Below are positions 6,828 to 28,751 of a stretch of DNA of 64,000 nucleotides, one piece after another; within the stretch, counting starts at the first letter, position 1; each line of letters opens with the position of its first letter. Under the pieces are notes generated by a model that did no database searches, was not told the origin of the DNA, and was given only the letters and a program-made list of their open reading frames with translations. The position numbers and the translations under genes are program-made. Origin of the DNA: Gemella sanguinis ATCC 700632 (GTDB lineage: Bacteria; Bacillota; Bacilli; Staphylococcales; Gemellaceae). Where the stretch lies: the NCBI RefSeq assembly GCF_000701685.1, contig NZ_JNJO01000004.1, forward strand, positions 90,000-153,999, given 5' to 3'.

Positions 6828-9221
6828 ATGAAGAATAAAAAATTCGTAGAAAAACTAGAGAAGTATCTTAAAAGACAATTTGGGGTAACTATCTCAAATG
6901 CAAGTAAACGTCAAGTCTATGAAGCATTAATGAGCACAGTAAGAGATGATCTATCAGAAAAGAAATTTTCTTATGAACAAGAGTTAAAAAAAACAAAACA
7001 AAAAAGAGCTTACTATATGTCAATGGAGTTTCTTGTTGGTAGAACATTAAGAAATAATTTATTTAATCTAGGATTAGAAAATGATGTTAAAGAATATCTT
7101 GATAAAAATAAATTTAATTTAGATGAGATTTATGACATCGAGCCAGATCCAGGATTAGGGAATGGAGGTTTAGGTCGTCTTGCTTCATGTTATTTAGATG
7201 CTTTAACTAGCAGTGATTATCCAGTGACTGGATTTTCTATATTATACGAATATGGTATTTTCAAACAAGTAATAAATAATGGTTGGCAACAAGAATTTCC
7301 AGATTATTGGTTAGATTTAGGTAAATATGGACTTGTATATCGTAATGATGAAGAGGTAGAAGTAAGGTTTTATGGAAGAGTAGAAGAAAAATTAACAGAA
7401 AATGGATTTGTAGTTGAACATAAAGATTATACTTCTATTCAAGCTGAACCTTATGATTTACTAATTTCAGGCTACAAAACTGATACAGTAAATACTCTTC
7501 GTTTATGGGAAGCAAAAGCAAAAACTGGTTTTAATATGAAATTATTTGAACGTGGTGAGTATTCAAAATCTTCTGAAGCGGAAGCAATTGCTTCATCAAT
7601 TTCAAAATTATTATATCCAGCAGACAGTACAAATGAAGGTAAAGAATTACGTATTAAGCAACAATACTTCTTTATAAGTGCATCTTTACAACAACTTCTT
7701 AAAAATCATTATAATGAGTTTGGAACACTTGAAAACTTATCAGATCATGTTGCTCTTCATATAAATGACACACATCCAGCTATGGGTGTACCTGAACTTA
7801 TGCGTTTATTACTAGACGAATATGGTTATTCATGGGATAAAGCGTGGGATATTACAACAAAAACATTCGCATACACTAATCACACAATTATGGCTGAAGC
7901 ATTAGAAAAATGGTCAGTAGATCTATTTAGACCTTTATTACCACGTATTTACTCAATTATTGAGGAAATTAATAAGAGATTCTGTCAATGGGTAATAGAT
8001 CAAGGTAAAGATTATACATTAGCAGAAACAGCAATTATTTATGATAATCAAATAAGAATGGCTAACCTTTCGATAGTAGGTAGTCACCATGTCAATGGAG
8101 TATCTAAGCTACACAGTGAAATATTAGTTGAATCTACTTTTAAAGCATTTTGTGAGTTATATCCTACTAGATTTGGAAATGTTACAAACGGTATTGCACA
8201 TAGAAGATGGTTAGGTCAAGCAAACCCAGAGCTTGCTGAATATTTAGAAGAACTTATTGGAAATGATTTTATTAAAGATTTATCTAAAATAGATAAATTA
8301 AATAAATATAAAGATGATAAAAAAGTAACTAAAAAATTATTAGAAATTAAGAAAATTAAAAAAGAACAATTAGCTAAGTATATACAGAATACCACTGGTA
8401 TAACTGTGAATACTGATTCAATATTTGATGTTCAAGTTAAGAGACTTCATGAATATAAACGTCAACTATTAAATGCATTACACATCGTTTATTTATACCG
8501 AGAAATTAAGTATAATGGACTACGTCCAGTGCCAAGAACATTTATATTTGCGGCAAAAGCCTCTTCAGGTTATCAAATGGCTAAAAATATAATTAAATTT
8601 ATTCATTCAATATCACAAATGATAGAAGCTGATGAATTAGTACGTGAATACATAAAAGTTGTGTTCCTACCAGACTATAAAGTTACTCTAGCAGAAAAAA
8701 TTATTCCTGCAGCTGATGTTAGTGAACAAATTTCTCAAGCAGGGAAAGAAGCAAGTGGAACTGGTAATATGAAACTTATGTTAAATGGAGCATTAACTCT
8801 CGGAACTCTTGATGGAGCGAATGTTGAGATACATGAAGCGGTTGGAGATGAAAATATATTTATCTTTGGTTTAGAAACTCCTCAAGTTGAAGAATTAAAT
8901 CGTCAAGGATATAAACCTTGGGAATACTATATGAATTCAGAAAAAATTAAAAATACGTTAGATTTCATTAGAACAATGACTGTAGGCGGAATGAATTTTA
9001 GTTTCATTGTAGATTACTTATTAACTAAAGATAATTATATGTGTTTAGCTGACTTTGAGAGCTATGTAGCAGCACAAGAACGAGTTGCAGAAACTTATAG
9101 TAATAAAGAAAAATGGGGACGTATGAGTCTTATTAATACAGCTAATGCAGGTATATTCTCTGCAGACCGTTCAGTTGAAGAATATGCAAAAGATATTTGG
9201 AACATAAAAAAAGTAAAATAG
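6828..9221 (+). CDS. glgP: glycogen/maltodextrin phosphorylase
   Basis: It releases glucose-1-phosphate from the non-reducing ends of glycogen or maltodextrin. The protein is 797 aa, GT35 family. The pyridoxal-phosphate lysine is K649 in GTGNMKLMLNGALTLGTLDG, and the GNGGLGRLA motif near residue 110 is intact. An AGGAGAG ribosome site precedes ATG. It is the last gene of the operon and is followed by a strong terminator at 9232. Its presence allows both storage and mobilisation from one transcript. Confidence 0.97.
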   Translation: MKNKKFVEKLEKYLKRQFGVTISNASKRQVYEALMSTVRDDLSEKKFSYEQELKKTKQKRAYYMSMEFLVGRTLRNNLFNLGLENDVKEYLDKNKFNLDEIYDIEPDPGLGNGGLGRLASCYLDALTSSDYPVTGFSILYEYGIFKQVINNGWQQEFPDYWLDLGKYGLVYRNDEEVEVRFYGRVEEKLTENGFVVEHKDYTSIQAEPYDLLISGYKTDTVNTLRLWEAKAKTGFNMKLFERGEYSKSSEAEAIASSISKLLYPADSTNEGKELRIKQQYFFISASLQQLLKNHYNEFGTLENLSDHVALHINDTHPAMGVPELMRLLLDEYGYSWDKAWDITTKTFAYTNHTIMAEALEKWSVDLFRPLLPRIYSIIEEINKRFCQWVIDQGKDYTLAETAIIYDNQIRMANLSIVGSHHVNGVSKLHSEILVESTFKAFCELYPTRFGNVTNGIAHRRWLGQANPELAEYLEELIGNDFIKDLSKIDKLNKYKDDKKVTKKLLEIKKIKKEQLAKYIQNTTGITVNTDSIFDVQVKRLHEYKRQLLNALHIVYLYREIKYNGLRPVPRTFIFAAKASSGYQMAKNIIKFIHSISQMIEADELVREYIKVVFLPDYKVTLAEKIIPAADVSEQISQAGKEASGTGNMKLMLNGALTLGTLDGANVEIHEAVGDENIFIFGLETPQVEELNRQGYKPWEYYMNSEKIKNTLDFIRTMTVGGMNFSFIVDYLLTKDNYMCLADFESYVAAQERVAETYSNKEKWGRMSLINTANAGIFSADRSVEEYAKDIWNIKKVK

Positions 9222-9231
9222 TTATTTATAG

Positions 9232-9275
9232 AACTTAGTATAGCATTATGTTATACTAAGTTTTATATTTTATTT
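9232..9275 (+). terminator. intrinsic terminator of the glg operon
   Basis: AACTTAGTATA (9232-9242) pairs perfectly with TATACTAAGTT (9252-9262) around a 9-nt loop and is followed by a T-rich tail. Confidence 0.85.
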
Positions 9276-9293
9276 TATAGGGGTGAAAAAACA

Positions 9294-9932
9294 ATTAAAA
9301 ATAATAAGATACCTAAAAAAGGTAAAATTAGAAGAAAAAAATCAAAAAATAATAATATAAATCCAAATAAAACAAAAAAATATAATAATAGAGACAATAA
9401 GAGCAAGATTACTTTAATATTTACGGCAATCCTGTTGTTATTATGTGGAGCATTTTTGGTAGGGGAATATTATAATGGAAAATCTAAAATTATTATTCAA
9501 AGACAGTTAACTGGAAGTAATAATATAGAGAAAGCTTGGAATTTTTATATAGCGGAAGGATTTAGTAAAGAAGCTACAGCAGGAATATTAGGAAATTATA
9601 TGAGAGAAAGTAAAATGGATCCTACAATTGAGGAGAAAGGAAATAATATAGGTTTTGGACTTGCACAATGGAGTTTTTCTAGAAGAACAGATTTGGAAAA
9701 GTGGACAAAAGAAAATGATTTTCTACCATCTAGTTTAGAGGGACAACTTAATTTTAGTCTCATAGAAATGGAAAAAATGAAATTTGGAAAATATAAATAT
9801 AATGATTTTAAAAGAGTAAATAATGTAAAAGAAGCAACAATTTTATTTGAGAAATATTATGAAAGAGCTGGGGTAGTTGCTTTAGAAGAGCGGATAAAAA
9901 ATGCTGAGGAAATTTATAAAAAATATTCATAA
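9294..9932 (+). CDS. membrane-anchored phage-tail-type lysozyme domain protein (copy 1), probable AUU start
   Basis: The C-terminal ~140 residues match the phage tail lysozyme fold (Phage_lysozyme2 type): NNIEKAWNFYIAEGFSKEA, then GILGNYMRESKMDP with the likely catalytic Glu, then GFGLAQWS. The only conventional start (TTG 9435) would cut the transmembrane helix in half. The frame stays open upstream with no ATG/GTG/TTG. An AGGGGTGA Shine-Dalgarno (9279-9286) lies 7 nt before an in-frame ATT at 9294. That start gives 212 aa: a Lys/Asn-rich cytoplasmic tail of about 40 residues, one TM helix (ITLIFTAILLLLCGAFLVG) and an external lysozyme domain. A GTG at 9283 would reach this frame if the A6 run at 9286-9291 had one more A. 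The protein is inferred to act on peptidoglycan at the cell surface. It is not part of a prophage here. Confidence 0.75.
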   Translation: MKNNKIPKKGKIRRKKSKNNNINPNKTKKYNNRDNKSKITLIFTAILLLLCGAFLVGEYYNGKSKIIIQRQLTGSNNIEKAWNFYIAEGFSKEATAGILGNYMRESKMDPTIEEKGNNIGFGLAQWSFSRRTDLEKWTKENDFLPSSLEGQLNFSLIEMEKMKFGKYKYNDFKRVNNVKEATILFEKYYERAGVVALEERIKNAEEIYKKYS

Positions 9933-10109: not shown

Positions 10110-10709
10110 ATGATAGAATACTCTTATAATGATACGTTAGGAGTGATTACAATAAATATAAATAATATTAACATAAAAAAAAGAGGATTGTTTATAATAA
10201 CTGCTTTTGTTGTAGCATTAAGTATGATAACGTTTACTAGTCAATATTGTGAAGCTAGAACAAAAGCAACTAATCAAACACAGATAGCAGCAAGTAATAA
10301 TGTCGAAAAAGCGTGGAATTTTTATATTTCACAAGGATTTAGTAAAGAAGCTACAGCAGGTATATTAGGGAATTATATGAGAGAAAGCAGAATGAATCCA
10401 TCTATTGTAGAAAGAGGAAATAATATTGGATTTGGAATTGCTCAATGGAGTTTTGCAAGAAGAATAAATCTTGTAACTTGGTTGAATAAAAACAATTATG
10501 CTGCATCTAGTCTAGAAGGACAACTTAGATTTAGTATTGTAGAAATGCAGAAAATGTCATTTGGAAAATATAATTATTCTAGTTTTAAACGAATAAATAA
10601 TGTAAAAGAAGCTACAGCAGTCTTTGAAAAGTATTTCGAAAGAGCTGGGGTAGTAGCAATTGATGAACGAACTAAGTATGCTGAAGAAATTTATAGAAAG
10701 TATGCATAA
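10110..10709 (+). CDS. secreted phage-tail-type lysozyme domain protein (copy 2)
   Basis: It is a paralogue of the previous gene, with near-identical blocks such as KAWNFYISQGFSKEATAG, LGNYMRESRMNP (putative catalytic Glu), NNIGFGIAQWS and ERAGVVA. The N-terminus is a signal peptide: KKRG, a hydrophobic core FIITAFVVALSMITF, then CEA as a probable cleavage site. The only in-frame ATG is 10110, but its AGAG abuts the codon and a perfect TATAAT (10125-10130) lies inside the first codons. A better Shine-Dalgarno, TTAGGAGTGA (10137-10146), points to ATA at 10152 (or ATT at 10146), the same position as the AUU of copy 1. The true start is therefore probably 10146-10152 and the protein about 185 aa. 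It ends at a strong terminator. Confidence 0.8.
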   Translation: MIEYSYNDTLGVITININNINIKKRGLFIITAFVVALSMITFTSQYCEARTKATNQTQIAASNNVEKAWNFYISQGFSKEATAGILGNYMRESRMNPSIVERGNNIGFGIAQWSFARRINLVTWLNKNNYAASSLEGQLRFSIVEMQKMSFGKYNYSSFKRINNVKEATAVFEKYFERAGVVAIDERTKYAEEIYRKYA

Positions 10710-10843: not shown

Positions 10844-10899
10844 AATAGGTAATAATTATAATAATAAATGTAATAGGTAATAATTATAATAATAAATGT
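10844..10899 (+). repeat. two perfect tandem copies of a 28-bp unit
   Basis: A 28-bp A+T-rich unit beginning AATAGGTAATAATTATAATA occurs at 10844-10871 and again, without change, at 10872-10899. It lies in the leader of tlyA, between an extended -10 (TGGTAAAAT, 10833-10841) and the ribosome site. It may be a simple replication duplication. Confidence 0.9.
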
Positions 10900-10922
10900 A
10901 TTAGTAATTTAAAGAGGTATTT

Positions 10923-27742: not shown

Positions 27743-27755
27743 AAGGATAAAGGGC

Positions 27756-28751
27756 GTGATAACTATAAATACAAAAAATTTGATGATGAAGATTTTAAAT
27801 GAAGCCATAGAAAAGAAAGCCAGTGATATCCATATTTATCCGAATATAACAGGATATTCCTTTATAAAACTCAGAGTAATGGGGAATCTGAGTAAATATG
27901 AAAAATATTCTAATAGGGAGTTAGAAGCAGTTATTTCATTATTGAAATATAATGCTAATATAGACATTTCAAGAAATAAAGAACCACAAAGTGGTAAGTT
28001 TGTTTATAGGCTCTTAGGTAAAGAATATTATCTAAGAGTTTCTACTTTACCTTTAAGTGAATTATTTGAAGGTTGTGTAGTGAGAATTTTTACAAATGAA
28101 ATTGAAGATGTTAAATATAGTATATTTTCAAAAGATAATATATTTATAGATAGACTTGCTTCAAAAGCAAATGGTCTTATACTCTTTTCAGGACCAACAG
28201 GGAGTGGTAAGTCAACATCAATGTATAAATTGGCAAGTAGATGTGCTCAATTAGGGAAACAAGTACTTACAATTGAAGATCCTGTAGAAAAAAATATTAA
28301 TAATTTGATTCAAATGCAGATTAATGAGAAAGCAGGGATAACCTATGAAAATGCTTTGAAATCAATGTTACGATGTGATCCAGATGTTCTTGTAGTTGGA
28401 GAAGTTCGAGATTATAAAACTGCGGGACAAGTTATAACATCTACTTTTTCTGGACATTTAGTTTTGAGTACAATTCATGCAGAAAATTCTATAGGTGTGA
28501 TAAATAGGTTAAGGGATTTAAATTTATCACATGAAGATATAAAACAAACTATAATCTGTATTGTCTCTCAAAGATTAGTTAGATTAACTAACAATAAAAG
28601 GGGATTAATTACCGAAATATTAACAAAAGAAGAAATTCAAAATTATATTGATAATAAAATTAGAAATAATAATTCTTTACAACATAAATTTAATATAGCC
28701 TATGAGAAGGAGATAATATCGCTTAATGAAAAAGAAAAATGGGGATATTAG
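27756..28751 (+). CDS. comGA: competence type IV pilus assembly ATPase ComGA
   Basis: It is the GspE-type traffic ATPase that powers assembly of the DNA-uptake pilus on the inner face of the membrane. The 331-residue protein has an N-terminal domain with KKASDIHIYP, Walker A GPTGSGKST (146-154), an Asp box around LTIEDPVE and Walker B with LRCDPDVLVVGEVRD. The GTG start at 27756 has only a modest AAGG/GGG signal before it. It overlaps comGB by 26 bp. The usual tetra-cysteine zinc motif of larger GspE proteins is absent, as normal for ComGA. Confidence 0.95.
   Translation: MITINTKNLMMKILNEAIEKKASDIHIYPNITGYSFIKLRVMGNLSKYEKYSNRELEAVISLLKYNANIDISRNKEPQSGKFVYRLLGKEYYLRVSTLPLSELFEGCVVRIFTNEIEDVKYSIFSKDNIFIDRLASKANGLILFSGPTGSGKSTSMYKLASRCAQLGKQVLTIEDPVEKNINNLIQMQINEKAGITYENALKSMLRCDPDVLVVGEVRDYKTAGQVITSTFSGHLVLSTIHAENSIGVINRLRDLNLSHEDIKQTIICIVSQRLVRLTNNKRGLITEILTKEEIQNYIDNKIRNNNSLQHKFNIAYEKEIISLNEKEKWGY

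Follow-up and report, generated by a model that had tools for sequence, protein, structure and literature searches.

To our knowledge, very few non-AUG starts have been established in bacteria. The classic AUU gene is infC of Escherichia coli, which encodes IF3 and is autoregulated, pcnB of the same species also has an AUU start, and IF3 generally represses initiation at AUU and AUA. The closest precedent for the genes described here comes from Staphylococcus aureus, where cvfC1 (AUU), ccpN (AUA) and infC (AUA) have conserved non-canonical starts with an extended Shine-Dalgarno (SD) motif, i.e., AGGNGT, GGGNGT, AGGNAT or GGGNAT upstream of the start, and where translation from AUU/AUA with a strong or extended SD amounts to ~10% of that from AUG, with a maximum of 30% (ccpN, rich medium) (PMC13009471). 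In Streptomyces sigR the annotated GTG lies inside the ribosome binding site and the real start is GTC, while the start of E. coli infC is AUU (PMC5472188). Gene finders limited to ATG, GTG, and TTG would misplace such starts, and a literature search returned no paper that describes a non-canonical start for comGA or for a lysozyme.

The window, i.e., the whole stretch of 64,000 nucleotides that was analyzed, is part of contig C4 of the 1.8 Mb Gemella sanguinis genome and carries a tandem lysozyme pair between glgP (ending at 9221) and a tlyA-like gene (10923). SD strength was taken as the duplex energy of the 22 bases upstream of a codon with the 16S 3′ end; the anti-SD sequence was taken from the 16S genes of the Gemella genome G005; a search of the draft genome G000 did not recover the 16S 3′ end. 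The features of the region are as follows:

9227..9267, + strand: terminator-like hairpin with a 19 bp stem and a U-rich tail, after glgP and just upstream of copy 1
9279..9286, + strand: SD of copy 1, AGGGGTGA, fitting the extended motif AGGNGT; duplex of -11.1 kcal/mol, spacing of 10 to ATT 9294
9294..9932, + strand: lysozyme copy 1 (PF18013), putative ATT start at 9294, 212 aa
10110..10112, + strand: sole in-frame ATG upstream of copy 2; SD duplex of -1.7 kcal/mol, directly adjacent and unusable
10120..10144, + strand: possible SD-covering hairpin, ACTCTTA...TTAGGAGT, with a z of -1.9 that is suggestive only; the loop region includes TATAAT (10125-10130)
10139..10146, + strand: SD of copy 2, AGGAGTGA, fitting AGGNGT; duplex of -10.5 kcal/mol, aligned spacing of 7 to ATA 10152
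10152..10709, + strand: lysozyme copy 2 (PF18013), putative ATA start at 10152, 185 aa, signal-peptide-like N-terminus

Full-length PF18013 matches scored 116.6 and 116.0 bits for the two copies (curated cut-off 28.2), both domains are related to the lysozyme domain of phi29 gp13 (PDB 3csr), and the products of the pair are lysozymes that are either secreted or anchored in the membrane. Just 5′ of the tlyA-like gene, AATAGGTAATAATTATAATAATAAATGTA is present as two direct tandem copies (10847-10901). The lysozyme genes are separated from glgP by the terminator-like hairpin (the sole such site called in the region; folding z = -5.4 for 9222-9330), so that copy 1 must have its own promoter or depend on read-through.

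In copy 1, TAGGGGTGAAAAAACA is followed by ATT at 9294 at a spacing of 10, and no ATG, GTG, or TTG occurs in the 46 codons after this ATT; the earliest in-frame canonical codon, TTG 9435, has no SD and lies deep in the membrane segment. In copy 2, TTAGGAGTGATTACA (10137-10151) directly precedes ATA (10152-10154), which is the in-frame codon at the best spacing from the AGGAG core of the SD (10139-10143), and the frame, which is open from ATG 10110 and includes ATA 10152, ends with the stop codon at 10709. Further downstream, the pairing of TTG 10188 is directly adjacent, with no SD at a workable distance. The initial annotation, which had proposed a non-AUG start in both paralogues, had placed the leader, ATA 10152, TATAAT 10125-10130 and ATG 10110 correctly, and both start codons are indeed preceded by ACA. 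Its further claim that the two starts occupy the same position holds only approximately, as the arrangement is GTGA-N7-ATT in copy 1 vs. GTGA-N5-ATA in copy 2 and the two proteins show a 27-residue difference in their N-terminal part.

The lysozyme family is present in only three of the nine Gemella genomes (four sequences), and syntenic orthologues are located upstream of the tlyA-like gene in Gemella cuniculi (G004) and in G005. An ATG at the position aligned with the proposed starts was sought in both and not found, the near-cognate start being kept as ATT in each. The leader reads TAATAGGGGTGAGG-ATT-ATT-ACG-AAA in G005 (start region AGGGGTGAGGATT-ATT-ACG; SD duplex of -11.1 kcal/mol, spacing of 8 or 5) and TTAAGGGAGGAG-ATT-ATT-GCA-AAT in G. 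cuniculi (start region GGGAGGAGATT-ATT-GCA; -12.8 kcal/mol, short spacing of 5). The only canonical codon near the G005 start is an in-frame GTG inside the SD, 2-3 codons 5′ of the ATTs, while in G. cuniculi nothing canonical appears until a TTG 15 codons on, which has no SD. In all four lysozyme genes, a strong SD is followed at a spacing of 5-10 by an in-frame AUU/AUA codon, while ATG, GTG, and TTG are absent at workable distances from this SD. The extended motif is found in copy 1 (AGGGGT), copy 2 (AGGAGT), and G005 (AGGGGT), and is not fitted by GGGAGGAGAT of G. cuniculi. A second G005 homologue (372 aa, ATG start), in which the lysozyme forms the C-terminal part, has a different architecture and is not an orthologue. 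No further homologues were found in plasmids or in genome contigs beyond G. cuniculi, and viral contigs held distant ones only.

Between the copies and orthologues, dN was 0.21-0.31 and dS 0.9-1.6, the latter near saturation, giving a dN/dS of about 0.13-0.3 that indicates purifying selection; the genes are therefore functional and must be translated. When read from ATT/ATA, the N-termini consist of basic n-regions (charges +15, +3, +2) followed by a hydrophobic segment, an arrangement that the downstream TTG starts destroy.

How rare this pattern is was assessed in the nearly complete G005 genome (1.76 Mb; 1,585 ORFs of at least 90 codons). A canonical ATG, GTG, or TTG at normal distance from an SD was present in 1,464 ORFs, while only four of the 1,585 lacked a canonical start and had an AUU, AUA, or AUC with a strong SD within the first 40 codons (infC, comGA, the lysozyme gene, and an ORF at 771843). 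Nearly all of the 329 ORFs in stretches of three genomes also had a canonical start at normal SD distance. In a control, 0.7% of internal Ile codons had a comparable SD, so that an ATT or ATA beside an SD is by itself unremarkable; what stands out is that alternatives are absent, that the codon lies at the N-terminus, and that the pattern recurs in three species. That a strong SD should have no usable canonical start behind it is not explained by chance (4/1,585 in the relative). As a site signature, the short pattern RGGRGTGA-N5-ATH proved too loose (one occurrence in the window vs. 0.32 expected; for the still looser form RGGNGTGA, two vs. 0.55 expected, and 12 in G005).

The genus as such appears to use AUU-type starts, since each of the nine Gemella infC genes carries one, in agreement with infC of other bacteria: AGGAGGTGCTGATC (or GTC) is followed by ATT AGT at a similar spacing, and the ATT stands behind AGGAGGTGCTG(A/G)TC, where annotation could mistake a GTG inside the SD for the start. 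In comGA (competence ATPase; 27752-27767 in the window), GTGA-N5-ATT/ATA/ATC (GTGG in one case) lies behind an SD in all nine genomes, and its start is ambiguous between AUU-type and GTG because the in-frame GTG inside the SD is conserved too. A gene for a VanZ-like membrane protein (G005 C1 1514789 and others), with a conserved AAGGRGAAATTTTTATTARA and no ATG nearby, is a further candidate for an ATT start, on the basis of four of the nine genomes. The G005 ORF at 771843 (C1) stands behind a hairpin and reads GGAGG-N9-ATA, without a canonical start that has an SD, and a Kelch-like protein gene of G. cuniculi (C3 132990; 349 codons open) has AGAGGAG followed by ATA and no ATG, GTG, or TTG in its first 60 codons.

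Alternatively, copy 2 might be transcribed from upstream and its translation begin at ATG 10110 (199 aa), practically unaided by an SD, copy 1 being poorly expressed or a special case. The codon is in frame and open, which counts against an AUA start, and in an AT-rich region unstructured starts can function without an SD. Nevertheless, we regard this as unlikely: the duplex energy of this ATG is only -1.7 kcal/mol vs. -10.5 for ATA 10152, in line with the earlier statement that it has no usable ribosome site, acidic residues among the 14 extra ones would then precede the signal sequence, no role would remain for the strong SD at 10139, and neither copy 1 nor the G. cuniculi orthologue has any ATG option. 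A transcript starting downstream of ATG 10110 had also been proposed on the basis of TATAAT 10125-10130. The hexamer is present, inside codons 6-7 of the ATG 10110 reading, but it is a weak argument for a promoter of copy 2: no matching -35 was found, promoter calling gave no promoter there, TATAAT occurs in the window at about chance frequency (253 vs. 224 expected), and it possibly forms part of a hairpin loop. In a longer transcript, ACTCTTA would pair with the SD of copy 2 and might mask it, which the folding score does no more than suggest.

Initiation at a GTG within the SD (10143 in copy 2, with equivalents in the G005 lysozyme, comGA, and infC) appears improbable, even though an in-frame GTG is present in copy 2, the G005 lysozyme (where it counts against the ATTs), all nine comGA leaders, and infC, and annotation programs would tend to pick it. 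This codon overlaps the SD, which leaves zero spacing (-4.4 kcal/mol, adjacent, for GTG 10143), copy 1 and the G. cuniculi gene have no in-frame GTG, and a like misannotation was disproved for Streptomyces sigR (PMC5472188). That the genes are decaying or silent, the true ATG lost and AUU/AUA meaningless, is very improbable, since despite the presence of the family in only three of nine genomes, four intact frames are maintained in three species under the dN/dS given above, the GILGN(Y/F)MRES region is invariant, and a strong SD is kept in all.

The best explanation is probably near-cognate initiation at AUU 9294 and AUA 10152, backed by a strong SD and keeping lysozyme synthesis low. Near-cognate initiation in the two paralogues and their orthologues is a well-supported prediction of a kind of start that is already known, and the proposal of the initial annotation is borne out by SD position and strength, N-terminal topology, genome-wide rarity, and ATG-less orthologues in two species. 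Against it count the abundance of Ile codons in an AT-rich genome, the long spacing in copy 1, the short spacing and missing extended motif in G. cuniculi, and a sample of four sequences from three of nine species. Mechanistically, the strong SDs (AGGGGUGA, AGGAGUGA) would position AUU 9294 and AUA 10152 within the P site of the ribosome, to be read there as fMet by the initiator tRNA. Third-base mispairing together with IF3 discrimination would hold translation low, the strong SD would compensate part of the lost initiation, and the likely purpose would be to limit the amount of wall-cutting enzyme made. Sensitivity to IF3 would be predicted from general biochemistry, and a shared IF3-linked control would be a reasonable hypothesis, because infC keeps an AUU-type start in nine genomes and IF3 generally represses AUU/AUA. 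A shared regulatory circuit, or a link of the lysozymes with infC or comGA, is only a suggestion and speculative, and we think it doubtful that a conserved AUU/AUA set (infC, lysozyme, comGA, perhaps the VanZ-like gene) rises together as IF3 activity falls, so that wall lysis and DNA uptake would follow the state of the translation apparatus. Should the starts be real, a few conserved candidates within a single genus would make IF3-linked control testable.

Compared with known systems, the Gemella lysozymes share their domain over its whole length with the PF18013 phage tail lysozyme of phi29 gp13 (Morphogenesis protein 1), but they are chromosomal, small, and equipped with a signal or anchor segment instead of belonging to a phage tail protein. 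They resemble infC in having AUU behind a strong SD, although infC encodes IF3 itself and allows direct feedback, whereas a lysozyme would at most be a passive target. The genes pcnB and sigR, neither of which encodes IF3, are kept at a low level by a near-cognate start, as proposed here, yet their starts are experimentally proven, their products are other ones, and sigR uses another codon; for the lysozymes the starts are predicted from sequence. The likeness is greatest to the S. aureus set, with which they share an AUU/AUA start, a strong SD, recurrence between species and, in three of four leaders, the AGGNGT motif, and low, SD-dependent, IF3-sensitive translation may be expected by analogy (PMC13009471). 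The S. aureus starts were shown by ribosome profiling, for cvfC1 and ccpN also with reporters, in contrast to the sequence-derived starts in Gemella, and the products there are regulators or IF3 instead of a lysozyme. If the prediction is true, a cell-wall lysozyme would join IF3, PcnB, SigR, CvfC1, and CcpN among the genes whose expression is kept down by an inefficient start codon.
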